A stretch of 52,169 bases of DNA from Microthrixaceae bacterium (GTDB lineage: Bacteria; Actinomycetota; Acidimicrobiia; Acidimicrobiales; Acidimicrobilacustridaceae). How positions within the stretch are numbered: the first letter of the stretch is position 1; each line of letters starts with the position of its first letter. Shown here in pieces: positions 6,047-52,169 of the stretch. The stretch covers positions 1 through 52,169 of the forward strand of contig CANFHM010000010.1 of the NCBI GenBank assembly GCA_947446975.1, written 5' to 3'. The translations under genes were made by a program, and so were the position numbers. The notes below the pieces were generated by a model, which was not told the DNA's origin, did not search any database, and was given only the letters and a program-made list of their open reading frames with translations.

Positions 6047-6058
6047 GGCGCACGTGTC

Positions 6059-6808: not shown

Positions 6809-6821
6809 CTGCGCCACTGTA
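6806..6821 (-). promoter_or_regulatory. Leaderless -10 element of the GT2-NUDIX-dinB unit
   Basis: Read leftward: TACAGT (6821-6816), 7-nt spacer, ATG at 6808. Confidence 0.65.
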
Positions 6822-6863
6822 TGACCACCGTCGTCCGCCTTCGTGACATCGACAGCGGCGCCG

Positions 6864-6878
6864 TACGATGGCGGGATG
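6864..6878 (+). promoter_or_regulatory. Leaderless -10 element of the small membrane-protein gene
   Basis: TACGAT (6864-6869), spacer GGCGGG, ATG 6876. It selects this ATG over the in-frame GTG at 6843. Confidence 0.6.
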
Positions 6879-7229: not shown

Positions 7230-7234
7230 CCCGC

Positions 7235-8038: not shown

Positions 8039-8103
8039 ACATCCCGAGGAATCCGCTCGGATTGACCGACCCATGACCCCGCCATCAGGGATGATGAAGA
8101 GCT

Positions 8104-10256: not shown

Positions 10257-11492
10257 TCAGATCGGGAGATCGCCGGTGGCCGCCCGGGTGGAGCCGTGGT
10301 CGCGATAGGCCGAGATGGTGCGCTGCGCGATGCGCATCTGATGGATCTCATCTGCCCCGTCGGCGAACCGGGCCCAGCGGGCCTGCTGGTACATGTGCGC
10401 CAGCGGCGTGTCGGTGGAATAGCCGAGAGCTCCGTGCACCTGGATGGAGCGGTCGATGATGCGGTTCAGCGAGTTGGCCACGAAATGCTTGGCCATCGAG
10501 ACCTCGGCGGTGAAGTCCTCGCCCCGGTCGATCTTGTAGGCGGCGTGCAGCACCATCAGCTTGCACTGGTAGAGCTCCATCGCTGAATCGGCGATCAACC
10601 ACTGCACGCCCTGCTTCTCGGCGAGGATCGACCCGTGCGAGAACCGCGACAGCGAGCGGTCGACCATCATGTCGAGCGCCACCTCGGCCTGGGCGATCCA
10701 GCGCATGCAGTGGGCGAGACGGGCCGGCCCGAGGCGGTACTGCCCGAGCCGGTGCCCCTGACCCCGGCCGCCGAGCATGTTCGCCGCAGGGATGCGGAGA
10801 TCCTCGATACGGATCTCGGAATGGCCGGTGGAGCCGTGCATGGTCTCGATCTGACGCACCTCGGTCCATCCCTCCGACGGGATGTCCACGATGAACGCGG
10901 TGTTGGCGGCCTGCGGAAGATCGGGATCGTCCTCGGTGCGGGCCACGAGGATGGCGAAGTTGGCCCGATGGGCGTTCGAGATGAACCACTTGTGACCGTT
11001 GGCGATCCACTCCTCGCCGTCCTGCACGGCGTTGGTGCGGATGAGCGTGGGGTCGGAACCGGCGACCTCGGGTTCGGTCATCGCGAAGCAGGACCACAGC
11101 CGTCCCTCGCACAGCGGCCGGAGGTACTTCTCCTTCTGCTCGTCGGTGCCCCAGTGCAGCAGGGTGTGCATGTTGCCCTCGTCGGGGGCCTGGCAGTTGA
11201 GCACCCAGGGGCCGAGACGGGTGCGGCCCGATTCGGCCTGCACCATCGCCAGCTCCACATGACCGAGCCCCATCCCGCCCCATTCGACCGGCATGTGCGG
11301 CAGCCAGAGCCCGAGCTCCTGGGCCTGCCGGCGCAGCTCGATGAGTTCGGTGACGTACGCCCGTCGATCGGTCTCGGCCACCCGGTCGGCCTCGAGGCGG
11401 GTCTCGGTCGGCGCCACCACCTCGGCGATGAACGAGCGCACGCGCAGGCGGATGTCCTCGAGTTCCGGGGAGAGGCTGAAGTCGATGCTCAT
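10257..11492 (-). CDS. Acyl-CoA dehydrogenase family protein
   Basis: A 411-residue flavoprotein of normal length for the family. It has the N-terminal helical domain, the middle-domain strand CFAMTEPEVAGSDPTLI, NGHKWFISNAHRANFAILVART, and the C-terminal helical domain with RIIDRSIQVHGALGYSTDTPLAHMYQQARWARFADGADEIHQMRIA. The last stretch holds the FAD/tetramer contacts, but the family's usual catalytic Glu position cannot be fixed by eye. The family oxidises acyl-CoA thioesters to enoyl-CoA and passes electrons to ETF; the longer middle insert (PSEGWTEVRQIETMHGS) is like the FadE/ACAD10-11 group. It is divergent from glpK, with 44 bp between start codons. Confidence 0.9.
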   Translation of the reverse strand: MSIDFSLSPELEDIRLRVRSFIAEVVAPTETRLEADRVAETDRRAYVTELIELRRQAQELGLWLPHMPVEWGGMGLGHVELAMVQAESGRTRLGPWVLNCQAPDEGNMHTLLHWGTDEQKEKYLRPLCEGRLWSCFAMTEPEVAGSDPTLIRTNAVQDGEEWIANGHKWFISNAHRANFAILVARTEDDPDLPQAANTAFIVDIPSEGWTEVRQIETMHGSTGHSEIRIEDLRIPAANMLGGRGQGHRLGQYRLGPARLAHCMRWIAQAEVALDMMVDRSLSRFSHGSILAEKQGVQWLIADSAMELYQCKLMVLHAAYKIDRGEDFTAEVSMAKHFVANSLNRIIDRSIQVHGALGYSTDTPLAHMYQQARWARFADGADEIHQMRIAQRTISAYRDHGSTRAATGDLPI

Positions 11493-11504
11493 TCCGACAG
11501 TCTG
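11490..11504 (-). promoter_or_regulatory. Weak leaderless -10-like element of the acyl-CoA dehydrogenase gene
   Basis: Read leftward: CAGACT (11504-11499), 6-nt spacer, ATG 11492. It has C instead of T at position 1 but the same geometry as the TANNNT sites. Confidence 0.35.
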
Positions 11505-11524
11505 CCCCGCCCACGCCGTCGACG

Positions 11525-11539
11525 TAGCCTGCGGCCATG
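11525..11539 (+). promoter_or_regulatory. Leaderless -10 element of glpK
   Basis: TAGCCT (11525-11530), spacer GCGGCC, ATG 11537. Only 20 bp separate it from the divergent dehydrogenase element. Confidence 0.65.
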
Positions 11540-13027
11540 TCCGTCGTGATCGCCCTCGACGCCGGCACCACCGGCGTGCGTGTCATCGCCTTCGATCATG
11601 CGGGGCTCCCCGTGGCCAGCGCGTACCGGGAGTTCCCACAGCACTTCCCCCGCCCCGGCTGGGTCGAGCACGACGCCGAGGAGATCTGGTCGGCGTTCCT
11701 CGAGGTGATGACCGAGGTGGCCACCGAACTCGACCGACTCGGGGAGACCATCGTCGCCATCGGGATCACCGATCAGCGCGAGACGATCCTGGTCTGGGAC
11801 CGCACCACCCACCGACCGCTGCACCGGGCGATCGTGTGGCAGGACCGCCGCACCGCCGACCGATGTGCGCAGCTGCTCGCCGACGGCGCCCTCGAGCTCG
11901 TGCGGTCGCGCACCGGCCTCGTCCTCGACCCGTACTTCTCCGGCACCAAGCTCCACTGGCTGCTCACCGAGGGAGGGGTCGAACCCGGATCTGACGTGGC
12001 CGCCGGCACGATCGACACCTGGCTGCTCTGGAAGCTCACCGACGGCGCGGTGCATGCCACTGATCCGAGCAACGCCTCGCGCACCATGCTCTTCGACATC
12101 GTCGACGGCACCTGGTCGCAGGAGCTGTGCGATCTGCTCGGCGTGCCCATGGAGCTGCTCCCCGAGGTCCGGCCGTCGAGCGGTCGCTTCGGCGTCACCG
12201 CCCCGAACTGCCCACTGGGTGCCGGCATCCCCATCAGCGGCGTGGCCGGGGATCAGCAGGCGGCGCTGTTCGGACAGGCCTGCTTCACGCCGGGGATGGT
12301 GAAGAACACCTACGGCACCGGGTCGTTCGTGCTCATGAACGTGGGGACCGACTGCCCCGGTCCCGTGGACGGGCTGCTCACGACGATCGCCTGGTCACTG
12401 CCGGGCGCCGGCGGTGCGCCTCCCGAGACCACCTACGCCTACGAGGGGGCGATCTTCGTCACCGGTGCCGCGGTGCAGTGGCTGCGCGACGAGCTGCGCA
12501 TCATCGGGTCGGCGCCGGAGATCGCCGACCTCGCCGCCGGTGTCCCCGACAGCGACGGCGTCATCCTCGTGCCGGCGTTCACCGGCCTGGGCAGTCCGTG
12601 GTGGGACCCCCACGCCCGTGGTGCGATGCTCGGCATCACCCGGGGCACCACCCGCGCCCATGTGGCCCGCGCCACGCTCGACGCCATGGCGCTGCAGACC
12701 CGCGATGTCGTGGACGTCATGTCGGCGTCATCGGGTCGACCCATCATGACCCTGCGTGCCGACGGTGGTGCCGCCACCGATCTCGTCCTGCAGCTGCAGG
12801 CCGATCAGCTCGGCGTCGAGGTACGACGACCCCGGGTGGCCGAGACCACGGCGCTCGGGGCTGCCTATCTCGCCGGCCTCGCCGAGGGGTTCTGGCGCTC
12901 GCTCGACGACATCAGTGCGAACTGGGCGGTCGATGCCACCCTGCAGCCCGCCGCCGATCGTGGCGCCGCGGATGCACTGCATGCGCAGTGGCTGCGGGCC
13001 GTCGACCGCAGCAGGGACTGGGCCTGA
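11537..13027 (+). CDS. glpK: Glycerol kinase
   Basis: A 496-residue FGGY kinase with canonical GlpK landmarks: ALDAGTTGVRVIAFD (phosphate 1), ITDQRETILVWDRTTHRP (glycerol contact Arg-Glu pair), WQDRRTA, SGTKLHWLL, TWLLWKL, SNASRTMLFD, GVAGDQQAALFGQ with the catalytic-base Asp, GTGSFVLMNVG and the C-terminal LRADGGAATDLVLQLQAD. It phosphorylates glycerol to sn-glycerol-3-phosphate. No aquaporin or transporter is adjacent. A second, more divergent FGGY kinase lies with glpD at 37355, so this copy is the likely true GlpK. It is transcribed from a leaderless promoter divergent from an acyl-CoA dehydrogenase, which would link lipid glycerol and fatty-acid use (inference). Confidence 0.93.
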   Translation: MSVVIALDAGTTGVRVIAFDHAGLPVASAYREFPQHFPRPGWVEHDAEEIWSAFLEVMTEVATELDRLGETIVAIGITDQRETILVWDRTTHRPLHRAIVWQDRRTADRCAQLLADGALELVRSRTGLVLDPYFSGTKLHWLLTEGGVEPGSDVAAGTIDTWLLWKLTDGAVHATDPSNASRTMLFDIVDGTWSQELCDLLGVPMELLPEVRPSSGRFGVTAPNCPLGAGIPISGVAGDQQAALFGQACFTPGMVKNTYGTGSFVLMNVGTDCPGPVDGLLTTIAWSLPGAGGAPPETTYAYEGAIFVTGAAVQWLRDELRIIGSAPEIADLAAGVPDSDGVILVPAFTGLGSPWWDPHARGAMLGITRGTTRAHVARATLDAMALQTRDVVDVMSASSGRPIMTLRADGGAATDLVLQLQADQLGVEVRRPRVAETTALGAAYLAGLAEGFWRSLDDISANWAVDATLQPAADRGAADALHAQWLRAVDRSRDWA

Positions 13028-13034
13028 GGCGACC

Positions 13035-13724
13035 TCACCAACCCGTGGACGGGTGGGCGAGCCGGGAGGCGAGGAGCTTCAGATCGCGAAACCTGGCATC
13101 GACGATCCGGGCGAGCGCCGCCGCCTGCCTCCGTTCCCGGGCCCGATAGGCCTCGCCGTTGCGACCGAGCACGAGGGCGTAGCCCGCCGCCGGCAGTGGC
13201 GCCCACACGACATCACCGGGGCCCGTGTCACCGCCGGCGACCCGGGCCGAGCTCTGGCTGCCGGCCACGAAGGCTGCCAGCCAGCCCGGGGTCGGGGCGT
13301 CCCCCTCCGAGGTGATCAGCTCCCCGGTCTCGAGATCCACGATGGCCCCCCAGACCGCTCCGACGGTCCGAACCGCATGCGAGCAGAGCTCGAGGACGGC
13401 GTCCTCGGCGGTGGGTGCCCCGACGAGCATCGCTGCGGTCTCCAGCGCGTCGAGGCGGGGATCGCGCAGCGTCACCTCCGCCGGCCTGATGCTCTCGACA
13501 TCCACCCCATCCACCTGATGGATCTCGGCCACCAGCAGATCGACCAGCTCCTGCTCATCGCCGGGGAGCTCGACGACGAGCTCGTCGATGACCCGTCCCG
13601 CGCCGCGTTCGAGGATGTCGATGCCTGCGACATCGCCGCCGACCGCACCGATCCGACTGGCGAGCGCACCGAGCGCACCGGGTCGATCCGGCATCCAGAC
13701 CCGAAGGATGTAGGTGGTCTTCAT
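13035..13724 (-). CDS. ACT-domain protein
   Basis: A 229-residue protein. The N-terminal 75 residues form an ACT domain: TYILRVWMPDRPGALGALASRIGAVGGDVAGIDIL is the ligand-binding first strand, loop and helix, followed by VDELVVELPGDEQELVDLL. The remaining 150 residues (VGAVWGAIVDLETGEL, then VVWAPLPAAGYALVLGR) read like a GAF-type sensory domain rather than an enzyme. ACT domains bind amino acids. The gene lies just downstream of the AlaC-type aminotransferase on the same strand, but has its own -10 (TAGCGT, 7 nt before the ATG). An amino-acid-sensing regulatory role is plausible. Confidence 0.8.
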   Translation of the reverse strand: MKTTYILRVWMPDRPGALGALASRIGAVGGDVAGIDILERGAGRVIDELVVELPGDEQELVDLLVAEIHQVDGVDVESIRPAEVTLRDPRLDALETAAMLVGAPTAEDAVLELCSHAVRTVGAVWGAIVDLETGELITSEGDAPTPGWLAAFVAGSQSSARVAGGDTGPGDVVWAPLPAAGYALVLGRNGEAYRARERRQAAALARIVDARFRDLKLLASRLAHPSTGW

Positions 13725-13737
13725 TCCCGAGACGCTA
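13722..13737 (-). promoter_or_regulatory. Leaderless -10 element of the ACT-domain gene
   Basis: Read leftward: TAGCGT (13737-13732), 7-nt spacer, ATG 13724. Confidence 0.65.
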
Positions 13738-13799
13738 TGGAGCGCCGGTGAACGCCGTGTTTCGGCCCGACGACGAGGTGGAGAACGCTCGCCGAAGGT

Positions 13800-14981
13800 T
13801 CAGCGGGGTTCGAGACGGGTGAGCGCCTTGCGCAGGTTGCGCACCGCCTGCTGGGTGCGCTGCTCGTTCTCGATGAGGGCGAAGCGGACGAAGCCGTCGC
13901 CGCCCGGGCCGAAGCCCACACCCGGCGAGACCGCCACGTTGGCCTCCTTCACGAGCATCGAGGCGAACTCGATCGAGCCCATCTCGCTGTACGCCTCGGG
14001 GATGGGGGCCCAGACGAACATGGTGCCCTTCGGCGGCTCGATGTCCCAGCCGATGCGATGGAGGCCGCCACAGAGGGAGTCGCGGCGGGTCTGATAGATC
14101 TCGTTGACCTCGAGCGGGAAGTCGGCGGCCTCGTTGAGCGTGACGGTGGCGGCGATCTGGATCGGCTGGAACGTGCCGTAGTCGAGGTAGCTCTTGAGCT
14201 TGGCCAGCGCCGCGATGACATCGGGGCGTCCGAGCATGAACGCCACCCGCCAGCCGGCCATCGAGAAGCTCTTCGTCATCGAGTAGAGCTCGACGGCGAC
14301 CTCCTTCGCCCCCTCCGCCTGCAGGATCGAGGGCGGTCGGTAGCCGTCGAAGCCGAGGTCGGCGTAGGCGTTGTCGTGGACGATGACGACATCGCGCTCA
14401 CGGGCGAAGTCCACGACCTTCTGCATGAAGTCGAGATCCACGCAGGTGGTCGTGGGGTTGTGCGGGAACGACATCACGATGACGCGGGGCTTCGGCCAGG
14501 AGTACTCCCATGCCTCGCGCAGGTTGTCGAAGAAGTCGGTGCCGGTGCCGAGCGGCACCTCACGGATGTCGGCACCGGCGAACAGTGGGCCGTAGATGTG
14601 GATCGGATAGGACGGCGACGGCACCAGCGCGGCATCGCCGGGCTGCAGAAGCGTCCACATCAGATGCGAGAACCCCTCCTTGGCACCGATGGTGTTGATG
14701 ACCTCGGTGTCGGGATCGAGGTCGACGTCGAACCGATGCTTGTAGTAGCCGGCGATCGCCTCACGGAGCTTCGGGATGCCGCGGCTCGCCGAATAGCGAT
14801 GGTTGCGCGTGTTGTGGGCGGCCTCGGAGAGCTTCTCGACGGCGATCTCGGGCGAGGGGAGATCAGGGTTGCCGAACCCCAGATCGATGACATCCTCCCC
14901 TGCTCGTCGAGCCTCGATCTTGAGTCCATCGATGATGGTGAAGACGTACGGGGGCAGCGACGTGATGCGGCGGAACTCCAT
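13800..14981 (-). CDS. Class I/II PLP aminotransferase (AlaC-like)
   Basis: A 393-residue fold-type I aminotransferase. Its start ([21 protein letters not shown], then [17 protein letters not shown]) is typical of AlaC-type alanine/glutamate-pyruvate transaminases. [10 protein letters not shown] carries the Asn that contacts PLP, and [18 protein letters not shown] carries the Schiff-base Lys. The C-terminal [12 protein letters not shown] supplies the substrate-carboxylate Arg. It probably converts pyruvate plus glutamate to alanine, though LL-diaminopimelate or methionine transaminases are close relatives. TACCGT seven bases before the ATG lies in the 38-bp gap after the ROK kinase gene, so it need not depend on readthrough. 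Confidence 0.88.
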
Positions 14982-14994
14982 CCGGACAACGGTA
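14979..14994 (-). promoter_or_regulatory. Leaderless -10 element of the aminotransferase gene
   Basis: Read leftward: TACCGT (14994-14989), 7-nt spacer, ATG 14981. Confidence 0.65.
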
Positions 14995-15019
14995 CCGGTT
15001 CGTCCGATGCCCTCCGGAA

Positions 15020-16042
15020 TCAGCGGAGCCGATGCTCGGTGCCGGCGAGCAGCGCGGCGCCGATCGCACCCGCCATCGGCCCCAGCGAGGCGGCGACGAC
15101 CGGCGTGGGACGATGCCGGCCGGCTCCGAGCACCTCGGCCGGCAGCAGTTCACCGACCCGATGCAGATAGTGCCGGGAGTGTTCGACGAGGCCACCACCG
15201 ACGAGCACGAGTTCGGGATCGAGGATGTTGATGATCGACCCGATGCCGATGGCGACCCATCGGGCGAACTCCTCGAACACCTCGAGCGCCATGGGATCGG
15301 CCGCATCGGCGGCGGTGGTGACATGTTCGCCGCGGATCGCTGCGGGATCGCCCCCGGCGAGACGCAGCAGCATCTCGCCGGACTCCCCCGCCCCGGACTC
15401 CCCTCTGCCGGACTCACCGGTGCCCGACTCCTGCGCATGCTGCACCGCCCGCTGGGCCAGCCACGCGAGACCCGCACCGGAGGCGTAGCGCTCCCAGCAC
15501 CCATGTCGTCCGCACGGGCAGAGCACCCCATCGCGCTCGACGACCATATGACCGGGCTCGCCGGCGAACCCGTGGGCGCCGATGCGGAGCCTCCCGTCGA
15601 TCATCACGGCGCCGCCGATGCCGGTGCCGAGCGCCACCATCACGAGATCCGCTGCGCCGCGTCCCGCTCCGAGCTCGGCCTCCGCCCACAGGGCACAGTT
15701 CGCATCGTTCTCGATCAGCACAGGGGCATGCACAGCCGCTTCGATGCGGTCACGGAGGGGCTGGTCGATGGCACAGCGCAGGTTCGGCGCACCCCGCAGG
15801 ACCCCCGAACGATCCACCACACCGGGCACGCCGAGTCCGATCCCGCGCACGGTGTGGCCGAGTTCCGCAGCACGCAGGCGCAGCGCCTCGATGACCGCCA
15901 CGAGCGCGTCGACGACGGCATCGACATCGCCCGGGGTGGATGCACGCTGCACCGCCACCGGTGCACCGGGATCGGCGGGGTCGCAGAGGACCCCGAGGAT
16001 CTTGGTGCCACCGATGTCGATCCCGAGCCGGAGTTCCGTCAC
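15020..16042 (-). CDS. ROK-family sugar kinase (second copy)
   Basis: A 340-residue ROK kinase: [13 protein letters not shown] at the N-terminus, [16 protein letters not shown] with the catalytic Asp near residue 113, [16 protein letters not shown], and the zinc-site segment [21 protein letters not shown]. It is a clear paralogue of the kinase at 2867 and lacks an HTH domain. A Glu/Ser/Gly-rich low-complexity stretch near residue 215 ([18 protein letters not shown]) is an expansion not expected in the family core. GTG 16042 is supported by TAGCGT seven bases upstream. The sugar (glucose, N-acetylglucosamine or another) is not determined. Confidence 0.87.
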
Positions 16043-16055
16043 CGGCGAGACGCTA
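16040..16055 (-). promoter_or_regulatory. Leaderless -10 element of the second ROK kinase
   Basis: Read leftward: TAGCGT (16055-16050), 7-nt spacer, GTG 16042. Confidence 0.65.
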
Positions 16056-16069
16056 CAGATCGCGGCGGA

Positions 16070-17191
16070 CTAGTACCGCAGCAGTGCGCCGATGCGCCCC
16101 ATGACGTCGAGATCGGCGTTCCCGACGCAGACCTCCACCGCACAGCCCGTTCGCAGGGCGGTGTCGACGATCTCGTGGATGACATCGTCATGGTGGGTCA
16201 TCTCGGCGCCATCGACCGGACAGGAGGGGCCCTTGCGGGCGAGCGATCCGCAGGACGGGCACCGCCACCCGGACTCGACGAACCCCTCCGAGACCAGCAG
16301 CGTGGCGACGCGTCGGTCGTTGATGGCGGCGATCGTGTCGACGAGGCCGGCGACCCCCTTCGAATGGGTGCCGATGGAATCGCGGAGGCGACCCACGAGG
16401 CGGGCCTCCTTCTCGAGCTCGAGGCGATGCTCGATGTCGAGGGCGGCGGCGCAGATCTCCTTGTCGGAGGCTCCGACACCGAGCGGGACGCGCGTGGTCA
16501 GACGCTCGCGGAGATACGGATGCAGCGTGGCGACAGTGGCGGCGTACACGTCGTCGGTGCCACCCACCGTGAGATGGGCGAAGCCCCGGTCCTGGAAGTG
16601 CCGGAACGCCACCTCGGCGGAATGACGCAGATGCTGGGCCACCAGCGCATCGGTGTGGTGCTGCTCGCGTTCGCGGGCGCCACGGCTCGCCTCATCACGG
16701 GTGTCGTAGTCACGGGGCAGGGCCTCGAACAGTTCTGCTCGTTCGATGAGCTCACCGAACTGGAAGACGAACATCCGCGCCCGCTGTCGGTCGACGAGCA
16801 GGATGCCCAGCGGCTCGAGTTCGTGGACGAGCTGCTCGAGGGGTTCGACCGCCGGGGCATGGTTGACCGCCACATGGTTCGAGACGGGCACGGGGAGCGC
16901 CAGCACCTGCCAGAACCGCTGCTCCACACAGGAGAACATCGCCAGGCCGCGCACACCGGAACGATCGAAACCGGACCGCACGTAGGTCGAGATCACATCG
17001 AGATCGGCCCGGGATGCGGCGAGCTCGGAGGCTCCGCCCAGCTCCCGGAACATCGAGTCGAGCCGATGTTCGTAGTCCTGGGGTCGGACCTGCCGGCGGC
17101 CATCAACGTCGAGATAACAGCTCACGACAGGGGAACCTGAACTTCGAAATGCAGCGAGTTCCCTGATGGCGGTCTCGGTGATCACGGGCAT
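16070..17191 (-). CDS. Bacterial archaeo-eukaryotic release factor (baeRF/eRF1-like) family protein
   Basis: A 373-residue protein. The first part (SPVVSCYLDVDGRR near residue 19, then RGLAMFSCVEQRFW) and the middle segment (LGILLVDRQRARMFVFQFGELIE near 130-152) match the eRF1 domain-2/3-like architecture of bacterial baeRF proteins. A C-terminal zinc ribbon has two pairs of Cys (WRCPSCGSLARKGPSC near residue 312). These proteins are thought to act at the ribosome on peptidyl-tRNA in rescue, hibernation or stress. An acidic/His-rich stretch (ASRGAREREQHHTD) is present, and no GGQ is obvious by eye. It has a strong Shine-Dalgarno (AGGAGGCGCC before the ATG) and a TACAGT about 30 nt upstream, so unlike its neighbours it is leadered. 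Confidence 0.75.
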   Translation of the reverse strand: MPVITETAIRELAAFRSSGSPVVSCYLDVDGRRQVRPQDYEHRLDSMFRELGGASELAASRADLDVISTYVRSGFDRSGVRGLAMFSCVEQRFWQVLALPVPVSNHVAVNHAPAVEPLEQLVHELEPLGILLVDRQRARMFVFQFGELIERAELFEALPRDYDTRDEASRGAREREQHHTDALVAQHLRHSAEVAFRHFQDRGFAHLTVGGTDDVYAATVATLHPYLRERLTTRVPLGVGASDKEICAAALDIEHRLELEKEARLVGRLRDSIGTHSKGVAGLVDTIAAINDRRVATLLVSEGFVESGWRCPSCGSLARKGPSCPVDGAEMTHHDDVIHEIVDTALRTGCAVEVCVGNADLDVMGRIGALLRY

Positions 17192-17222
17192 GGCGCCTCC
17201 TGAAGTCTCGGTTGTGATTTCG

Positions 17223-17228
17223 ACTGTA
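17223..17228 (-). promoter_or_regulatory. -10 element of the baeRF-like gene (leadered)
   Basis: TACAGT read leftward from 17228, about 31 nt before ATG 17191, with AGGAGG between. No -35 match was found at 16-18 nt. Confidence 0.4.
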
Positions 17229-17302
17229 CGTCGCGATCACCGGGAATGCTCGGAGTGCTGCGGATCCCGTGCGGAACCCACCAACTGCGTGGTTCTGGAG
17301 GT

Positions 17303-17770
17303 TCAGTCCTCGTCGACGGGGCGGGGTGCGCCCTCGACCCGGGCCTTCAGTTCCGAGAGCGCGGTCTTGATGATGCGCCCCTCGGCCCGGCGCTTCACGA
17401 ACCCGGGGATGGGGTAGACGAGATCGACGGCGAGCTCGTAGTCGACATCGGTGGCCGAGGGATCGTCGCCGGCGGTGGTGAGGACATAGGCGCCGTCGAG
17501 CTCACGCGGGAGATCCCCGCTGACGAGGCTCCAGCTGAGACGAGCGGGCGCGGCCGAGTAGTCGTAGGCCAGCTGATAGGTGGTGCTGCGACCCATGGCG
17601 GCGGCGCGGAACTCGACGACCGTGGCCCGACCCTCGGCGTCGGACTCGACCACGTGGACCTCTTTGAGGTCGCCGGCCCATTCGGGGTAGGACGCGAAAT
17701 CGATCAAGGTGGCGAAGCACCGATCGATCGTCGCAGCGATCCTGATCCGTTCCCTGGCCTGTTCCGACAT
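17303..17770 (-). CDS. SRPBCC-family (polyketide cyclase/dehydrase-like) protein
   Basis: A 155-residue START-like lipid/ligand-binding protein. It starts MSEQARERIRIAATIDRCFATLIDFASYPEWAGDLKEV, the typical SRPBCC opening with the FxxxxDFxxYPxW pattern, and ends in a long amphipathic C-terminal helix (IKTALSELKARVEG). GGAGGATCCC before the ATG is a good ribosome-binding site. It is the last gene of the leftward unit containing queG and a PimB-like mannosyltransferase; the same neighbour pair (PimB' and an SRPBCC protein) is known in mycobacteria, hinting at a role near phosphoinositide-mannoside synthesis. Function unproven. Confidence 0.82.
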   Translation of the reverse strand: MSEQARERIRIAATIDRCFATLIDFASYPEWAGDLKEVHVVESDAEGRATVVEFRAAAMGRSTTYQLAYDYSAAPARLSWSLVSGDLPRELDGAYVLTTAGDDPSATDVDYELAVDLVYPIPGFVKRRAEGRIIKTALSELKARVEGAPRPVDED

Positions 17771-17810
17771 GGGATCCTCCCCTCGGGCACCGTGCCCGAC
17801 GGGTGCGACC

Positions 17811-18338
17811 CTACTCCGTGGGATCGGTGGGTCCGGGGCCCTTCGGGCGGCCGGCCCGTCCGCGATCGAGGCGCGGATCGAACTCCCGGGCCGGGAAGGA
17901 TCCGTAGGCCGCCACCCACAATCCGGTGAGTCCGAGCGACCACATCGGGGCCAGCACCCCGAACGCGAGTGCGGTGTAGACGTGGGTCGAGGCGATGAGG
18001 ATCGAGGCGATGGTCTGGACCACCAGCGCCCCGAGGAGTCGCACCCGGACCGGCCGTGGCGCGCTCCCCGATCCGAAGAACAGCCCACCCACACCGATGG
18101 CCTCGCTGCGGCTGCGATCGACAGCACGCAGGAGCGCCAGCGCGAACACCAGGGTGCCGAACGCGAACTCGAGGAGCGACACGGCGACATAGGCGACCAT
18201 GAACCCGCCCATCAGGATGGCGGCGAGCGCCCCCAGCACGATGAACACCCCTGTGCCGACGAGCGTGAGTGCCACGATGCCACCGCCGACGGACTCCTGC
18301 GCGGGGACGTCGGTTCCGACGTGGTCGGGCTGATCCAT
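17811..18338 (-). CDS. Four-helix membrane protein in the PimB-like operon
   Basis: About 175 residues. A soluble N-terminus of about 17 residues is followed by four hydrophobic segments (about 20-43, 46-68, 97-117, 121-141 by eye) and a basic Arg/Pro/Gly-rich C-terminal tail. The ATG overlaps the stop of the upstream glycosyltransferase in TGATG; a GTG one codon earlier is also possible. Its position between a mannosyltransferase and an SRPBCC protein suggests a membrane partner for glycolipid assembly or transport, but no motif identifies it. Confidence 0.75.
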   Translation of the reverse strand: MDQPDHVGTDVPAQESVGGGIVALTLVGTGVFIVLGALAAILMGGFMVAYVAVSLLEFAFGTLVFALALLRAVDRSRSEAIGVGGLFFGSGSAPRPVRVRLLGALVVQTIASILIASTHVYTALAFGVLAPMWSLGLTGLWVAAYGSFPAREFDPRLDRGRAGRPKGPGPTDPTE

Positions 18339-19465
18339 CACTGTGCTCCGAGGTTGTCGATCGCCGCCTGCAGTCGGCCGGCGAGCTGGTCATAGGTGAA
18401 CCCGTCGAGCACGCGCTGACGGGCGGCCCGTCCGAGCGTGGCACGCCGGACGGGATCCTCCATCATCCGTTGGAGGGCGGCGACAAGTGCGCCGACATCA
18501 CGGGGATCGTCGAGCACGACACCGGTGGTGCCGTCGAGGACCGCCTCGGCGGAACCACCACTGCGACCGGCGATGGCAGCAACACCTGCGCTGGCGGCCT
18601 CGAGGAACACGATGCCGAACCCCTCCTGCTCGAGCCCGCCCCACCGGTCGCGGCACAGCATGGCGAAGACGTCGGCGGCACCGTGGAGTTCGGCGAGATC
18701 CGCCTCCGGCACCCGCCCGAGCAACCGGACGGGACTCGATCGCTGTTCGGCCCTCCGTTCCAGGCGTCGGCGATCCCGCCCGGCCCCGGCGATGAGCACC
18801 TGGAGCTGGGGATCGGCAGGAGCGAGCACCGCAGCGGCGTCGATGAGCGTGTCGAACCCCTTGCGGGGCACCAACCGACTGAGCCCGAGCACCAGGAAGC
18901 TCCCGGGCGCGATGCCGAGGCGCGCGCGAACCTCGCTGCGACGCTCGTCGGTGAGCGGGCGGAACCGCTCGGGGTCGACCCCGGGAGGGATGATCACCGT
19001 GGGCAGCGGGCGTCCGGCGGCGCGCTCGGCCTCGGCGGCCGGATACCCACCGGCGGCGATCACGATCCGGGCATCGCGCAGCACGGTCCCGAGCAGGTGG
19101 CGGGCGACAGGAAGACGGCCGGGCACGGTGACCTCGGCGCCATGCAGCACGACGCCGTAGGGCCGTTCGAGCCGCGGGCCGAGCTGACCGAGCGGCAGGG
19201 CCGGGTCGAGGAGCACGAGATCGGCATCGACCTCGGCGGCCAGCGCATCGATGCGACGCACCAGCGATCGCGTGGGCAGCAGCACCCGGGCTCGGTCCCG
19301 TTCCACACGCATCGGTTGGACGGCATCGAAGGCCCCGTCGCCCGATCGTGGTGTGGTGAGCACCGTGGTGCGCTCGGGGGGGAGGCGCCGCCACAGCTCC
19401 CAGAGATACGACTGGATCCCGCCGACCTTCGGCGGGAAGTCATTGGTGACGAGCAGATGCTTCAC
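18338..19465 (-). CDS. GT4 glycosyltransferase, PimB-like alpha-mannosyltransferase
   Basis: A 375-residue GT-B enzyme. The N-terminus (LLVTNDFPPKVGGIQSYLWEL) has the glycine-rich acceptor loop of the PimB'/MgtA group. LHGAEVTVPGRLPVAR follows near residue 110, and the donor site is GLSRLVPRKGFDTLIDA and EGFGIVFLEAASAG (EX7E motif) near residues 205 and 285. In actinobacteria PimB' adds the second mannose to phosphatidylinositol mannoside. GTG 19465 overlaps the queG stop (GTGA), which ties the gene translationally to its neighbour. Other alpha-mannosyl- or glucosyltransferases of GT4 cannot be excluded. Confidence 0.8.
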   Translation of the reverse strand: MKHLLVTNDFPPKVGGIQSYLWELWRRLPPERTTVLTTPRSGDGAFDAVQPMRVERDRARVLLPTRSLVRRIDALAAEVDADLVLLDPALPLGQLGPRLERPYGVVLHGAEVTVPGRLPVARHLLGTVLRDARIVIAAGGYPAAEAERAAGRPLPTVIIPPGVDPERFRPLTDERRSEVRARLGIAPGSFLVLGLSRLVPRKGFDTLIDAAAVLAPADPQLQVLIAGAGRDRRRLERRAEQRSSPVRLLGRVPEADLAELHGAADVFAMLCRDRWGGLEQEGFGIVFLEAASAGVAAIAGRSGGSAEAVLDGTTGVVLDDPRDVGALVAALQRMMEDPVRRATLGRAARQRVLDGFTYDQLAGRLQAAIDNLGAQ

Positions 19466-20538
19466 CGGTGGATCCCCTCACGACTGCGTGCATCGAGACG
19501 ATCGATCGCCCAGCGGGCGTGTTCGGCGAGCATGGCGTCGGAGGATGTGGCGAGCCGGACCAATGATGATCGGACCCTCCCATCGGTGGGATCGGCAGCA
19601 TTGCCGAGGGCCACGATGGCGTTGCGGCGCAGGTACCGGGGATCCCGACGGGGGATGTACCAGCGACCATGCCGGGCGAGGAGCTCCTCATCGGAGGCGT
19701 CGAGGAACTCGAGCAGATCGACCCTGGCGCCGGGATCGTCGACGGGGAGCGCCGCCTCGGGTGAGCGTCGACTCGGCGGGCACACCTCCTGGCAGTCGTC
19801 GCATCCGTAGATCCGATCGCCGAGGGCCTCGCGATGTTCGAGCGGGATGGAGCCCTCGGCCTGCACCAGCCAGGCGAGACATCGACGGGCGTCGACCACA
19901 CCGGGTGCGACGATCGCACCGGTGGGACAGGCGTCGATGCAGCGGCGACAGGTGCCACAGCCATCGGGGACGGCGGGCGAGGGCTCCAGCTCGGCATCGG
20001 TGACCACCGAACCCAGCAGCACCCAGCTGCCGTGGCCGGGCACGAGGAGATTGGCGTTCCTGCCGAACCAGCCGAGTCCGGCGCGATGCGCAGCGGCGCG
20101 GTCGACGAGTGCGTTGTCGTCGGCCACGATGCGCGTGCGATGGCCGGCGGCCTCCAGTTCGCCGGCGACCATGCCGAGTGCGGCTCGGAGATCGGCGTAA
20201 TGGTCGCGTGTGGCGTAGCGGGCCACCCGGCCGCTCGGGACGGCAGCCTCCCCGCCACCGGACACCGGTGCAGCCGCTTCCCCGCCGGGATAGGGCCAGG
20301 CGGCGACCACGAGCGATGCTGCGCCGTCGAGCAGCGCCGCCGGCTCGGTGGAACGGTCGGGGTTGCGGTAGGTGAACTGCATGGACCCGTTGAGTCCGAG
20401 CGCCCGGCGTTCGTGCAGCGCAGCACGGGCCTCGATCAGCGGGGCGACATCGGTGACGCCGAGGGCGACGAGTCCGGCTCCGAGGCCGACCGCACGCAGG
20501 CGTTCGACGGACACGAGGGCGGACGAGGGCACCCGCAC
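19462..20538 (-). CDS. queG: Epoxyqueuosine reductase
   Basis: An iron-sulfur, cobalamin-dependent reductase of about 358 residues that performs the last step of queuosine synthesis in tRNA. The two 4Fe-4S clusters are visible as CGTCRRCIDACPTGAI (about residue 190) and GCDDCQEVCP (about residue 245). The N-terminal cobalamin-binding part has GLVALGVTDVAPL and MQFTYRNPDRSTEPAAL. The C-terminal YIPRRDPRYLRRNAIVALGNAAD resembles the HEAT-like repeats of the long form. The start is placed at GTG 20538, after the stop of the upstream small gene; a GTG two codons later is equally possible. No other queuosine gene is in the window. Confidence 0.88.
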   Translation of the reverse strand: MRVPSSALVSVERLRAVGLGAGLVALGVTDVAPLIEARAALHERRALGLNGSMQFTYRNPDRSTEPAALLDGAASLVVAAWPYPGGEAAAPVSGGGEAAVPSGRVARYATRDHYADLRAALGMVAGELEAAGHRTRIVADDNALVDRAAAHRAGLGWFGRNANLLVPGHGSWVLLGSVVTDAELEPSPAVPDGCGTCRRCIDACPTGAIVAPGVVDARRCLAWLVQAEGSIPLEHREALGDRIYGCDDCQEVCPPSRRSPEAALPVDDPGARVDLLEFLDASDEELLARHGRWYIPRRDPRYLRRNAIVALGNAADPTDGRVRSSLVRLATSSDAMLAEHARWAIDRLDARSREGIHR

Positions 20539-46220: not shown

Positions 46221-49200
46221 TCAGGACCCGAACAGCAGACGGGGGGTGAACGAGCGACTCACGGCGTCGGAGAGGCCCTGCATGTTGCGCACCCGCACCG
46301 ACACTGTGTAGCGAGTGCCGTTGGAGAGGCTCTCGAACCGAACCGAGGTGGCGTCTGCGTCGAGATCACGACAGGTGGTGTCGACGCACACGGAGAACCC
46401 GGTGATCTCGGTGCCACCGTCGTCGACCGGCGCGGTCCAGGACACATCGACCGCTCCCGCACGGGGAGTCGCCACAAGCGTCGGGACCACATCGGGCACG
46501 GTCGAGGGAACGCCAGTGGCATCATCACCGACACCGACGCCGGCGGGGTTCCGGGGGGTGACCGACACGGTGTACTCGACCCCGTTCAGCAGCGAGGTGA
46601 CCGTGGCCGAAGTGGCGGCGCCGTCAGCACCGGCGCAGACCCTGCGGCCCGGTCCGACATCCGGCGGTGTGGCGCAGATGTCGTATCCGATGAGTGCCGC
46701 ACCGCCGTTGAAGCCCGCCGTCCAGTTCACCGTCAGCGAACGGTCGGCGCCGCTCACCGAGGTGATCGACGGTGCTGAGGGGATGGTGAAGGGGACGCCG
46801 GAGCTCGAAGCCGTCGCCGAGGTGCCGTAGGCCGTGGACGCCGAGACCGAGACTGCATAGGAGGTGCCGTTGGTGAGACCGGTGACGGTCCTGCTGCGAA
46901 CTGCCGCATCGACAGAGGCGCAGGTCGTGACCACGCACACCCGGTAGCCGGTGAGGGGACTCCCACCGGTGGAGGTCGGCGTGCCCCATCGGATGGTGAG
47001 GCTGCCATCAGCACCGACCACGCTGCGCACCTCGGGTGCCGAGGGAGCGCCGGGGAGCTCGATCGATGCCGACTCCGAATCGGATGCGCCGTGCACGTTG
47101 AAGGCCTTCACGGTGAGGGCATAGGTGAGCCCGTTGGTGAGACCGGTGATCGAACCGGTCGTGGCAGCGGCGCCGACGTTCACGCAGGTGGAACCGGCGC
47201 ACAGCTGGTACTTGACCAGCGCCGCTCCCCCGTCGAACCTCGGCGCCTCCCAGACGAGGTCGACGGCACCCGGGCGACGGGTGGCCGACACGATGTTCGG
47301 GATGTCGGGGATGGTGGAGGGAACTCCGGTGCTCGTGACCGTGACGCCGCCGGCGATGTTCGTGGCGGTGAGCGCCACGTCGTAGCGGGCGCCGTTGACC
47401 AGACCCGGCACCACGATGGACCGCACTTTTCCGGATGCGGACACGCAGATCGGACGACCGATGGAACGATTCACGCAGACACGGTGACCGGTGAGCGCCG
47501 AACCGCCGTTGAAGCCAGCCGTCCAGTTGACCGTGAGGGTCTGGTCGGTGCCCACCACCGAGGTGATGGTCGGGGCCGACGGCGTGGTGAACGGCACCAC
47601 GGTGCCGGCATCGGTGTTCTGCACCGACGTGCCGTAGCCATTGATCGCCACCACGGTGACGGAGTAGCCGGTGCCGTTCGTGAGGCCGGTGATCCGGGCG
47701 GCGCGATCAGCGGCCACGGCCGGAACGCAGGTGGCGCCGGCGCAGACCGAATAGCCGGTGATGCGATCGCCGCCGGTGGACGACGGTGCGGCCCAGCGGA
47801 CGTCGATCGACCCGGCGCCGGGTGTGGTCTCGACCGACCGTGGCGCCGACGGAGCACCGGGGAGCGTGATCGAACCGGTGTCCACCGGGGAGTAGCCGGC
47901 AGCGTTCCTGGCCGAGACGGTGACGCTGTAGGTGGCGCCGTTGGTGATGCCGGTGAGCGTCGCGGTGCGACGGGACCCGGTGACATCGAGACATGATCCC
48001 GACACCACGCAGATGCGATAGCCGAGGATGACCCCACCGCCATCGTTGGTGGGGACATCCCAGGTGACATCGATGGTGTGACTGCTCTGGGTGATGTCGA
48101 GGATCTTCGGGGCCGAGGGCTCGACCATCACGAGAAGACGGCCGGCGTTGAAGCTCCAGATGTCCGGGAGCAGTGTCGTGACTCCGACGATGCCGAGGCC
48201 GGCGGCGCCGGTGCCGGCGACCGAACGGAAGTCGGTGGTGGCATCGATCGTCGCCGAGTTCATCCTGATGCCGGTCATGGTGGCACCGGAGGCGTCGGCA
48301 CCGGACAGATCGGTCCCGCTGAGGCGGGCGCCGGTGAGGTCGGCCCCCGCGAGTCGGGCCCCGACGAGCACCGAACCGGTGAGATCGGCCCCGCTGAGGT
48401 TGGCGTTGCGCAGGTCGATCCCGGTGAGATCGAGACGGGCGAGGTCGGCATCGTGGAGGTCGCGGCCGGCGTAGGACCCACCGGCCCGGATGACCGAACC
48501 ATTGATGATCGTGCCGCGTGATGCCTGCGAGGTGCCCACCGAGTTGGTGGCACGAACGCTGAACACACTGGTCAGTTCATCGAGCTTCACGGTGAGCGAA
48601 CCAGCGCTGGCGTCGAGATCACGGCAGTGGAGCGGGATGTCGAAGCACACCGTGTAGCCGGTGATGCCTGCGCCGCCGGTGCTGGCGGGGACCCGCCACG
48701 AGAGGCTCAGGTTCGAACCGCTCACGCTCGCCGAGGTGATCGTGGGCAGCGACGGTGCCAGGAACGGGCTCGGGTAGGCGGTGGTGACGGCATCGGCCGA
48801 GGTGCCGAGTGCGTTGCTGGCCCCGACCCGCAGCGTGTACTGCGTGCCGCCGGTCAGTCCGGAGAAGGTGACCGAGGTCGCCGACGCGTCGAGGTCCTGG
48901 CAGGACGCACCGACACACGCCCGATAGCCGCTGATCTCGTAGCCGCCATCTGAGGTCGGGGCGGACCAGTTCAGCGTCAACGCACCATCGGCGACAGTGG
49001 TCGAACTGAGCACCGGGATCGAGGGAACGGTCCGGGGAGCCGCGGTGGTCGATGCCTGCGGTGATGCGCCGCCGGCGTTGGTCGCTGCGACCGTGACCGT
49101 CCGCGTGCCCGGGGCGGTGAGCCCGGTGATGGTGGCGGTGCGGGCGGAGCTCGCGAGGTTCGAGCAGGACGACGCGGCGCACACGACGTACCCGGTGATG

Positions 49201-52169
49201 GTGTCTCCGGTGTTGGCCCCGGGAGCTGACCAGTTCACCGTGATCGAACCGTCGCCCACGCTGGTTCCGGTGATGACGGGAGCATCGGACGGCGCCCGGG
49301 TGACGTACAGCGAGCCACTCGTGATCCGCCACATCGACGGGAGCTGGCTGGTGGTTCCACTGATCCCCGTTCCGGTGGCACCCAGACCGGTCACCGAGGA
49401 GAAGTTCGTCCCCGAGTTGATGGTGATCCCCGTGAGGTTCGCTCCGGTGAAGATGCCGTTGCCGAAGGTGACGTTGGACAGGTTTGCGCCGGTGAAGTTG
49501 GCCCCTGGGAACTTCGAGTTCGGGATCGATGCCGAGTTCACCTGGTCGAAGCGGATCCCGTCGAGGCGGGCGTCGGTGAAGTCGGTGGTGTTCACCGTGG
49601 CGTTGTAGATGAAGTTCCAGTTGGCGTTGCGGAGATCCGCACCGGTGAAGTCGGCGCCGGTGAGGTTCGCCTGCCAGAGCGCATTCGAGCCACCGTTCTT
49701 CAGCACCGTGCTGCGGAACTTCGAGTTGGTGAGATTCGCGTACTGCCAGGTGGCACCGGTGGTCGTGGCACCCGAGAAGGTCGCTCCCGTGGAGTTGGAC
49801 TGGTAGAAGCTGGCGTTGGTGAGATCAGCGCCGGTGAAGTTCGCGCTGCTCACATCACTGCTGACGAATCGGACACCGTTGAGGTTGAACCCGGCGAAGT
49901 TCCGACCCGACAGGTTCTGGTAGTCGAACCAGGTGCTGGTCAGCGTGGCGCCGGTGAGGATCACCGAGGCCCAGTTCGTGACACTGGAATCCCGGTTGAC
50001 CTGATCGAACCGCACACCGTCGAGGCGGGCGTTGGTGAAGTTCGTGGCCTTGATCGAGGCGTTGTAGAAGAAGGTCCAGTTGGTGTTGCGCAGATCGGCA
50101 CCCGTGAGATCGGCCCGGTTCAGATTTGCCTGCCAGAAGCTGTTCGAACCGCCGTTCTTCAGCACGGTGTTCACGAACCGGGCGTCGGTGAGATTGGCGT
50201 ACTGCCAGGTGGTTCCCGTGGTGGTGGCCGCCGAGAACGTCGCCGCCGTGGCGTTCGCCTGATAGAAACTGGCATTCGTGAGGTCAGCTCCGGAGAAGTC
50301 GGCGCCACTCACATCTCCGCCGAGGAACCGCACGCCGGTGAGGTTGGACCCGGAGAAGTCGCGTCCCGACATGTTCTGGTAGTCGAACCAGGCCCCGACC
50401 AGCGAGGCGCCCGTGAACTTCACCGAGGCCCAGTTGGTGACGCTGGACGATCGATTGACCTGATCGAACCGCACACCGTCGAGGCGGGCATTGCGGAAGC
50501 TCGTCGCATTGATGGAGGCGTCGGAGAAGAAGTCGGTGCTCGTGTTGCGCAGATCCGCACCGGTGAAGTTGGTGCGGGTGAGGTTGGTCTGCCCGAAGGC
50601 ATTCGACTGTGTGTCCTTCAGGACGGTGGTGAAGAACCGAGCATCGGTGAGGTTGGCGTACCGCCAGGTGGCACCAGTGGTGGTGGCGCCGGAGAAGTTC
50701 GCCCCGGGAGCCTTGGCCAGATAGAAGGTGGCGTTCGTGAGATTCGCCCCTGAAAGGTCGGCGTTCGTCAGGTTCGCGGCGAGGAAGCGGGTGCCGGTGA
50801 GGTCGAACCCGGAGAAGTCGAACCCGGTGAAGTTGACGTAGTCGAAGTACGTGCCCCTGATCGATGCGCCCGTGAGCTTCGTGGTCGCCCAGGACACCGT
50901 GAGGCTGTCGCGACTGGCCAGATCGAGCCGGATCCCGTCGAGTCGTGCGTTGGTGAAGTCCGTGGCGTTGATCACGGCTGACTGCAGGACGTTGCTGTAG
51001 ATGCCACGAAGATCTGCACCGGCGAAATTCGCCCGGGTCAGGTTCGTGTAGGCGAGCCCTTCGCCGGCGAGCGACCCGAGGGTCGAGTTCACGAACCTGG
51101 CGCCCGTGAGGTTCGCACCGCGGAAGGAGGTGTTGGTGAACGTGGCGCCGGACAGGTCGGCGTCGGTGAGGTTCGCCCCACCGAAGCTGGTGTTCGTCAG
51201 GTCGAACCCGGCGAAGTTCGCACCCGACAGCTTCGCCGCACCGAAGATGACGCCACGGAGATTCGCACCCGTGAAGACCACCCCCGGGAGGTTCCCGCCC
51301 ATCTGATCGAGCCGCACACCCGCAAGATTCGCGTTGGTCAGATTCGTGTGATCGAAGGTCGTCCACTGGAAGAAGTTCACCCAGGTGACCCGCAGATCCG
51401 AACCGGTGAAATCCGTGCGCGTGAGGTTCGTGTAGGCCAGACCCTCACCGTTCATCCCCGACAGATCCGAGTTCCTGATCTTCGCATCGGTGAGATTCGC
51501 ACTGCGCAACGACGTGTTCTTGAAGATGGCGCCCGACAGATCAGCACCAGAGAGGTCCGCCCCACCGAACGTCGCGTTCGAGAGATCGAACCCAGCGAAG
51601 TTCACCCCGGACAACTTCGCGTTCCCGAACGTGACACCTTGGAGATTCGCACCCGTGAAGATCACCCCCGGAAGATTCCCGCCCATCTGATCGAGCCGCA
51701 CACCCGCAAGATTCGCGTTGGTCAGATTCGTGTGATCAAAGGTCGTCCACTGGAAGAAGTTCACCCAGGTGACCCGCAGATCCGAACCGGTGAAGTCCGT
51801 GCGCGTGAGGTTCGTGTACGCGAGTCCCTCGCCGTTCATACCGGAGAGGTCGGAACCGATGATCTTGGCGTCGGTGAGATTCGCGTTGCGCAACGACGCA
51901 CCGGCGAAGGTCGCCCCCGACAGGTCGGCACCGGTGAGATTCGCCCCACCGAAGTTGGTGTTCGTCAGATCGAACCCAGCGAAGTTCACCCCGGACAACT
52001 TCGCGTTCCCGAACGTGACACCACGAAGGTTCGCGCCGGCGAAATTCACTCCCGGCAGCTCGCCGCCCATCTGATCGAGCCGCACACCAGCAAGATTCGC
52101 GTTCGTCAGATTCGTGTGATCGAACGCCGCCCACTGGAAGAAGTTCACCCACGTGACCCGCAGATCCGA
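46221..52169 (-). CDS. Giant pentapeptide-repeat / fibronectin type III surface-type protein (partial, 5' end off window)
   Basis: At least 1,982 residues; the frame runs open through the right edge, so the N-terminus is missing. Order from the N-terminal side: a long pentapeptide-repeat region (A(N/D)LxG-type, about 52169-49330), three Fn3 domains (about 49310-48500), a short second pentapeptide island (about 48480-48150; LSGADLTGSVLVGARLAGAD), then seven Fn3 domains to the end, which stops soon after the last domain in LLFGS without an LPXTG or membrane anchor. Every Fn3 copy has a Cys pair in its C-C' region (GYxVC, then C 4-12 residues later), probably a disulfide, which points to an extracellular location. 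Pentapeptide repeats form a rigid right-handed beta-helix. Likely a secreted or cell-surface adhesin or stalk. Confidence 0.9.
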   Translation of the reverse strand, partial: SDLRVTWVNFFQWAAFDHTNLTNANLAGVRLDQMGGELPGVNFAGANLRGVTFGNAKLSGVNFAGFDLTNTNFGGANLTGADLSGATFAGASLRNANLTDAKIIGSDLSGMNGEGLAYTNLTRTDFTGSDLRVTWVNFFQWTTFDHTNLTNANLAGVRLDQMGGNLPGVIFTGANLQGVTFGNAKLSGVNFAGFDLSNATFGGADLSGADLSGAIFKNTSLRSANLTDAKIRNSDLSGMNGEGLAYTNLTRTDFTGSDLRVTWVNFFQWTTFDHTNLTNANLAGVRLDQMGGNLPGVVFTGANLRGVIFGAAKLSGANFAGFDLTNTSFGGANLTDADLSGATFTNTSFRGANLTGARFVNSTLGSLAGEGLAYTNLTRANFAGADLRGIYSNVLQSAVINATDFTNARLDGIRLDLASRDSLTVSWATTKLTGASIRGTYFDYVNFTGFDFSGFDLTGTRFLAANLTNADLSGANLTNATFYLAKAPGANFSGATTTGATWRYANLTDARFFTTVLKDTQSNAFGQTNLTRTNFTGADLRNTSTDFFSDASINATSFRNARLDGVRFDQVNRSSSVTNWASVKFTGASLVGAWFDYQNMSGRDFSGSNLTGVRFLGGDVSGADFSGADLTNASFYQANATAATFSAATTTGTTWQYANLTDARFVNTVLKNGGSNSFWQANLNRADLTGADLRNTNWTFFYNASIKATNFTNARLDGVRFDQVNRDSSVTNWASVILTGATLTSTWFDYQNLSGRNFAGFNLNGVRFVSSDVSSANFTGADLTNASFYQSNSTGATFSGATTTGATWQYANLTNSKFRSTVLKNGGSNALWQANLTGADFTGADLRNANWNFIYNATVNTTDFTDARLDGIRFDQVNSASIPNSKFPGANFTGANLSNVTFGNGIFTGANLTGITINSGTNFSSVTGLGATGTGISGTTSQLPSMWRITSGSLYVTRAPSDAPVITGTSVGDGSITVNWSAPGANTGDTITGYVVCAASSCSNLASSARTATITGLTAPGTRTVTVAATNAGGASPQASTTAAPRTVPSIPVLSSTTVADGALTLNWSAPTSDGGYEISGYRACVGASCQDLDASATSVTFSGLTGGTQYTLRVGASNALGTSADAVTTAYPSPFLAPSLPTITSASVSGSNLSLSWRVPASTGGAGITGYTVCFDIPLHCRDLDASAGSLTVKLDELTSVFSVRATNSVGTSQASRGTIINGSVIRAGGSYAGRDLHDADLARLDLTGIDLRNANLSGADLTGSVLVGARLAGADLTGARLSGTDLSGADASGATMTGIRMNSATIDATTDFRSVAGTGAAGLGIVGVTTLLPDIWSFNAGRLLVMVEPSAPKILDITQSSHTIDVTWDVPTNDGGGVILGYRICVVSGSCLDVTGSRRTATLTGITNGATYSVTVSARNAAGYSPVDTGSITLPGAPSAPRSVETTPGAGSIDVRWAAPSSTGGDRITGYSVCAGATCVPAVAADRAARITGLTNGTGYSVTVVAINGYGTSVQNTDAGTVVPFTTPSAPTITSVVGTDQTLTVNWTAGFNGGSALTGHRVCVNRSIGRPICVSASGKVRSIVVPGLVNGARYDVALTATNIAGGVTVTSTGVPSTIPDIPNIVSATRRPGAVDLVWEAPRFDGGAALVKYQLCAGSTCVNVGAAATTGSITGLTNGLTYALTVKAFNVHGASDSESASIELPGAPSAPEVRSVVGADGSLTIRWGTPTSTGGSPLTGYRVCVVTTCASVDAAVRSRTVTGLTNGTSYAVSVSASTAYGTSATASSSGVPFTIPSAPSITSVSGADRSLTVNWTAGFNGGAALIGYDICATPPDVGPGRRVCAGADGAATSATVTSLLNGVEYTVSVTPRNPAGVGVGDDATGVPSTVPDVVPTLVATPRAGAVDVSWTAPVDDGGTEITGFSVCVDTTCRDLDADATSVRFESLSNGTRYTVSVRVRNMQGLSDAVSRSFTPRLLFGS
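46242..47860 (-). repeat. Duplicated three-domain Fn3 block
   Basis: Fn3 domains 5-6-7 (counting from the N-terminal side) match 8-9-10 in order, with shared linkers ITLPG/IELPG then APSAP, VVPF/GVPF then T(T/I)PSAP, and the GFNGG(S/A)AL motif. The DNA anchor GGAGC(A/G)CCGG occurs at 47851 and 47044, 807 bp (269 codons) apart. Confidence 0.7.
49544..50920 (-). repeat. Block of 459-bp (153-codon) pentapeptide super-repeats
   Basis: The anchor corresponding to (L)DQ(V) lies at 49544, 50003, 50462 and 50921, with exactly 459 bp between each. Each unit encodes phrases such as NARLDGVRFDQVN, WFDYQN, GATTTGATWQYANLT and VLKNGGSN. Confidence 0.88.
50921..52169 (-). repeat. Block of 384-bp (128-codon) pentapeptide super-repeats
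   Basis: The anchor GATCGAGCCG lies at 50921, 51305, 51689 and 52073, exactly 384 bp apart, and the block runs on past the window edge. The copies at 51305 and 51689 are almost identical over the first ~105 bp (one difference seen) and differ by only a few synonymous changes in the next 50. Units encode VNFFQWTTFDHTNLTNANLAG, LDQMGG and NGEGLAYTNLT. Confidence 0.9.

Follow-up and report, generated by a model that had tools for sequence, protein, structure and literature searches.

The 52,169-nt contig CANFHM010000010.1 of an uncultured Microthrixaceae bacterium (assembly GCA_947446975.1), here called the window, is all of contig C10 in a genome assembled into 96 contigs (2,348,618 bases; completeness 88.63%). 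It carries on its minus strand a long open frame (46221-52169) with a predicted pentapeptide-repeat beta-helix in which a super-unit is duplicated. We consider it likely that this array is an in-register beta-helix rod within a large, probably secreted protein, that the rod grows and turns over by recombination of whole-coil blocks, and that the protein is most likely a surface or matrix stalk or an adhesin. A first-pass annotation of the same DNA had noted the unit spacing and proposed a shift of pentapeptide phase in every unit, with a regular kink or cap; the phase shift and the cap are better explained by units of whole coils with bulges at the corners.

Spacing of the repeat units

The anchor that marks each unit recurs exactly where the first-pass annotation had placed it, at 49544, 50003, 50462, 50921, 51305, 51689 and 52073, and the intervals are exactly 459, 459, 459, 384, 384 and 384 bp. 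Because the gene lies on the minus strand, the 384-bp units come before the 459-bp units in the protein: three units of 128 residues (U1-U3) are followed by three of 153 residues (U4-U6), and the window terminates at the contig end within a 384-type unit. The features, all on the minus strand, are as follows.

46221..52169, open frame: the gene's C-terminal 1982 residues, running off the contig at the 5′ end
52074..52169, incomplete 384-type unit next to the contig end, with an exact 107-nt stretch in common with contig C62
51690..52073, U1, 384-type, 128 residues (6 coils and 8 bulge residues)
51306..51689, U2, 384-type, 85.4% nucleotide identity to U1
50922..51305, U3, 384 bp, chimeric: front like U1/U2, rear like U4-U6
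50463..50921, U4, 459-type, 153 residues (by its counts 7 coils and 13 bulge residues)
50004..50462, U5, 459-type unit
49545..50003, U6, 459-type unit
49362..49544, C-terminal array edge, last pentapeptides
49281..49361, closing segment without repeats (..TSQLPSMWRITSGSLYV..), which the relatives G011 and G008 also have
48513..49280, fibronectin type III block 1 (extent by eye)
48198..48482, second, short pentapeptide region outside the super-periodic array (extent by eye)
46269..48101, fibronectin type III block 2, reaching near the C-terminus (extent by eye)

When the DNA was compared with itself, the best lag was 459 over 49532-50920 (74.6% identity) and 384 over 50921-52169 (79.9% identity), and both arrays were recovered independently by Tandem Repeats Finder (scores 1420 and 1512). 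Nucleotide identity between units was 67-85% overall (69-85% among U1-U3, 67-78% among U4-U6). Simple pentapeptide repetition does not explain this spacing, since the best 300-bp self match in the array (0.883 at lag 384, 0.817 at lag 459) far exceeded the 0.433-0.440 reached by three shuffled controls that kept whole five-codon blocks. For eight other pentapeptide genes, taken from relatives and from the same genome, the corresponding value was 0.687 in one and 0.41-0.543 in the other seven. The gene with 0.687 (at lag 276) encodes a 531-residue pentapeptide protein of G011 (C124; L035 5514-7106).

Predicted fold and coil register

Pfam PF00805 matched the window part of the protein in 16 stretches with an E-value of 2.6e-124 (404 bits; cut-off 20.2). 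The closest solved sequences were the designed consensus pentapeptide solenoids of the beta1 series (4yfo, 4yc5; E 2.9e-21), which differ from the array in being synthetic, short and without a super-unit. By prediction, the array adopts the right-handed four-sided beta-helix of pentapeptide-repeat proteins (Rfr fold), and four repeats per coil follow from this fold. A structure model of residues 36-224 (189 residues, 1.5 units), based on a 10-row alignment, reached a predicted local distance difference test score (pLDDT) of 93.1 and a predicted template modelling score (pTM) of 0.89, and nearly all of its 47 Foldseek matches with E ≤ 0.001 were structures of pentapeptide-repeat proteins, with 4yc5 at the top.

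In the model, bridges recur every 5 residues except at the steps 72→85, 95→108 and 123→130, which span 13, 13 and 7 residues (+3, +3 and +2). Read as two sides plus 3, two sides plus 3 and one side plus 2, these steps make a unit of 24 sides plus 8 residues. The 128-residue unit can thus be written as 24 × 5 + 3 + 3 + 2, that is 24 sides (6 coils) and 8 bulge residues, the 153-residue unit as 28 × 5 + 3 + 3 + 7, that is 28 sides (7 coils) and 13 bulge residues, and the complete unit of G011 (132 residues; repeat unit of 396 bp) as 24 × 5 + 12. This register accommodates all six units of the window and the complete G011 unit, which come out at 24 or 28 sides. Their bulges fall on side 14/18 or 18/22 and at the corner following side 22/26. 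Exactly one coil separates the two bulged sides, and the third insertion comes after the corner of the same side in the next coil; a partial unit of G008 has the same bulge spacing.

Aligned over one period, the 153-residue units are longer by 20 residues in their smooth part and by 5 in the third bulge. The difference of 75 bp or 25 residues between the types, which the first-pass annotation had taken for five pentapeptides, consists of one 20-residue coil and 5 bulge residues. Nor is a phase shift in every unit supported: 128 and 153 residues can both be composed of whole coils and bulges, so that the four-sided register stays intact. Bulges 1 and 2 were rich in tryptophan (10 of their 104 residues, while the other 796 of the first 900 residues include 8), a comparison on non-independent data because the units are paralogues.

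Signs of recombination among the units

We built a tree of the units in one-period rows (n = 10, two of them short; 411/423 nucleotide columns kept). Whether units group by position across species was set as a question beforehand; the clades for the approximately unbiased (AU) test and the chimera test were chosen post hoc, with alignment and tree known. The answer differed between the two ends of the array. At the N-terminal edge, the own unit (U0) paired with that of G011 (support 100/99 on DNA, 100/100 on protein), and forcing U0 together with U1 and U2 was rejected (AU p = 0.0087 on DNA, 0.0011 on protein). At the C-terminal edge, grouping by position was itself rejected, as forcing the units of the three species together cost 55.9 log units (AU p = 2.5e-5 on DNA, 1.8e-5 on protein). 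U4-U6 formed a clade that excluded the relatives' units (100/100), U1 and U2 joined the N-edge pair with lower support (91/99 on DNA, 81/94 on protein), and the placement of U3 was weak (52/84 on DNA, 84/87 on protein).

Judged by its informative sites, U3 is a chimera of both unit types. It followed type A at 42 of 57 sites before aligned codon 130/131 and type B at 15 of 16 sites after it (73 sites within U3; p = 0.0002), and the signal was also present in the one-period register (76 sites, p = 0.0002). In the register starting at the NFAGFDL motif, U3 has 133 residues. The two unit types described earlier exist, although they are not cleanly alternative, as U3 joins a 384-type front to a 459-type rear. 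U1 and U2 share an identical run of up to 62 nt (p = 0.0004 over all columns), consistent with a shared mosaic tract. Together with the U4-U6 clade and the rejected C-terminal grouping, the tract and the chimera bear out the proposed modular growth, and recombination inside the gene is well supported. The outcome that the first-pass annotation had named as a refutation, grouping by position across species, does occur for the N-terminal edge unit.

Estimates of synonymous divergence (dS) were 0.40-0.54 among U0, U1 and U2 and 0.58-0.76 among U4-U6. Own and G011 sequences differed by 0.98 in their orthologous edge units and by 1.26 across the 1098 codons ahead of the array.

Gene layout across two contigs

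The remaining 5′ part of the gene lies on contig C62 of the same genome (L025 1-3816, minus strand; 1272 amino acids). It begins with an ATG at 3816 preceded by AGGAG and encodes a hydrophobic signal-like segment, GGSFT-type repeats that resemble a propeller by eye, four fibronectin type III stretches and, as the first unit of the array, the N-terminal edge unit (384 type). Seven further fibronectin type III stretches lie in the window part (Pfam), and U1 contains 15 contiguous pentapeptide repeats without insertion. About 3,250 residues are resolved over both contigs, of which up to ∼43 may be one copy read twice. Since the ends of C10 and C62 agree exactly over 107 nt and then diverge, the assembly probably lacks one or more units, if the difference does not come from a mixture of strains.

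Each of the two pentapeptide regions is followed by one of two related closing segments (LPxxW...; window 48102-48194 and 49281-49361). A similar LPxxW-like stretch was also seen by eye between pentapeptide blocks of other proteins in the genus.

Relatives of the gene

We found the propeller part in 3 of 21 genomes of the genus at E ≤ 1e-10 (own, G011 and G008), the G008 match covering only 44 residues at a contig end. The array profile matched the same three among 37 family genomes at E ≤ 1e-20. Class-wide, propeller-like matches occurred in 6 of 296 sampled genomes, our own included. The own and G011 proteins are 74% identical across the N-terminal half, and the neighbouring genes match on both sides (e.g. 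92%, 87%, 82% and 88% upstream, 76% and 73% downstream). Contig C22 of G011 is identical letter for letter, on the reverse strand, to WLCQ01000118.1 from an Actinomycetota bacterium metagenome-assembled genome. In all three genomes where the gene was found, short-read assembly has broken it, with contig ends interrupting the array in the own genome, in G011 (C22, C12) and in G008 (C14).

A rod that may lengthen by whole coils

The proposed layout runs from a signal-peptide-like start through propeller-like repeats and fibronectin type III domains to the array and then to more fibronectin type III domains, with the array forming one long right-handed four-sided beta-helix. It would grow and turn over as tandem copies of a single block recombine with one another. 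The block is made up of whole coils (6, or 7 in the form that gained one coil) and of bulges that occupy the same corner in three coils in a row. Every duplication would therefore add whole coils in register, and repeat lengths seemingly out of phase with the pentapeptide would be explained, the odd lengths being absorbed in the corner bulges. In this way, a solenoid may lengthen by recombination without loss of register. The implied rule, length = 20 × coils + bulges, can be tested on other long pentapeptide-repeat genes.

Duplication would also place a bulged patch rich in aromatic residues on one edge of the rod at intervals of about 6 or 7 coils, and such patches could act as repeated contact sites of a cell-surface or matrix rod. 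Judged by its architecture, the protein would most likely serve as a secreted stalk or adhesin whose contact patches recur. More tentatively, and on balance with less confidence than doubt, the array might act as a natural molecular ruler: the rod would grow by whole coils only, its aromatic patch would recur on the same edge every 6 coils in one half and every 7 in the other, depending on the unit type duplicated, and each species would have its own bulge lengths (8, 13 and 12 extra residues) on a fixed corner. If so, recombination would alter rod length and patch spacing while leaving the fold intact.

Weighing the alternatives

Several observations count against an in-register rod that grows by recombination. 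As regards its history, the dS between U3 and U2 (0.88) and between U3 and U5 (0.96) is close to that of the species split, so that the split of the unit types may be old; the identical run of U1 and U2 loses strength when only third positions are counted (p = 0.018), and those of U0/U1 and U0/U2 are not significant (p = 0.18-0.87). As regards the fold, an unconstrained parse finds 23 pentapeptides, not 24, in U1 and U2 (28 in U5), and the count of 24 sides needs the first 8-residue segment to be one side plus 3. The best template modelling score to a solved structure was 0.61 (MfpA, by Foldseek, whose matches of a solenoid slip in register). We infer the 459-type register from the consistency of counts across unit types. 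A 930-residue single-sequence AlphaFold2 model was poor (pLDDT 64.0, pTM 0.45; Foldseek root-mean-square deviation mostly >10) and was set aside for geometry. As regards location and relatives, the GGSFT-type, propeller-like repeats had no Pfam or PDB match, inspection of the C-terminus by eye revealed no apparent surface anchor or sorting motif, and no neighbour of the G008 gene matched within the stretches compared.

One alternative is an old array kept by position, in which the duplications preceded the species split, selection on the beta-helix pattern keeps the units alike and little exchange has occurred since. The N-edge pair and the divergence of U3, whose distance from either type (0.88-0.96) comes close to that between the species, could be taken this way. 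We nevertheless regard it as improbable, given the ungrouped C-terminal edge units, the chimeric U3 and dS values that are lower within types (0.40-0.76) than between species (0.98-1.26). A linker at each unit end that shifts the phase and imposes a regular kink or cap would instead make the rod a chain of separate short helices. Such a chain would fit the parse of 23 pentapeptides, which is no multiple of 4, as well as the position of the lowest confidence of the 930-residue model in the linker stretches, and for AlbG a loop of 13 residues with a kink of the beta-helix is described (PMC8145042). We think this unlikely too: the alignment-based model, which covers 1.5 units, passes all three bulges as one continuous helix with no cap predicted between units, and whole coils plus bulges account for each of the lengths seen (128, 153 and 132 residues). 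An artefact of assembly or strain mixture in a metagenome-assembled genome, suggested by the contig breaks inside the array in all three genomes and by the 96 contigs and 88.6% completeness of this one, is very improbable, as, apart from U1/U2 (longest exact match 56 nt in this register), no two units of the window have more than 27 nt exactly in common, far less than the 107 nt at the assembly break, 1982 residues are read without a stop codon and G011 has the same kind of unit (396 bp).

Comparison with known systems

The in-register rod resembles the Rfr-fold proteins (PF00805; HetL, QnrB1, MfpA, AlbG) in its A(D/N)LXX-like repeats, four per coil, and in its predicted right-handed beta-helix. 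In HetL, QnrB1, AhQnr and AlbG, short loops are described as projecting from the corners of the helix (PMC8145042). These proteins are reported there to have about 4-10 coils, whereas the array has at least 7 tandem units of 6-7 coils, bulges at fixed places and accompanying fibronectin type III domains. The NCBIfam models for HetL (NF047416; 304.3 against a cut-off of 260) and Alr5209 (NF052603; 280.9 against 125) scored above threshold when summed over 8 and 11 stretches; we set membership aside because the summed score is a repeat artefact and the architecture is unlike those small proteins. The scores for Qnr (NF033086; 167, cut-off 240) and MfpA (119, cut-off 360) fell short of membership.

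Periscope Proteins, bacterial surface stalks of variable length outlined in PMC8201768, share with the array long tandem DNA repeats in one gene, intragenic recombination, a rod-like product and trouble in short-read assembly. The seven exact anchors agree with their tandem array of highly similar repeats, though identity between units is only 67-85%. Their units are separate folded domains, whereas here the units are segments of one solenoid that is continuous in the model. Repeat number in Periscope Proteins varies between strains; the present comparison covers one genome per species, with the array broken in each of the three that carry the gene. Periscope Proteins also have an N-terminal ligand-binding domain and a surface anchor; in the protein described here the N-terminus holds the propeller-like GGSFT-type repeats, which matched nothing in Pfam or the PDB, and no sorting motif was seen by eye in the C-terminus. 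Fibrillar adhesins with stalk domains (PMC9210967) are likewise very long, repetitive, domain-rich and probably surface proteins, and also occur in Actinobacteria. The main text of that article has 0 occurrences of "pentapeptide", and no known adhesive domain was found in the protein studied here. Among the matches listed in our search of the open-access literature, we found no description of the array or its unit.

Other very long proteins were observed in the same group of genomes. Very long pentapeptide-repeat proteins of a second family occur in the same-genus genomes G018, G004 and G017, with members of 2582 (L030 5277-13022), 2180 (L031 6324-12863) and 946 residues (L032 456-3293); a strong super-period was not seen in them (self match 0.427-0.543), and the 2180- and 946-residue members end at contig ends. 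The own genome also contains an 8231-residue open frame with many fibronectin III-like matches (G000:C21, 35453 bases; L080 = bases 1-20000), and open frames of 9536 (G009:C158) and 9230 residues (G014:C150) are present in genomes of the same genus.

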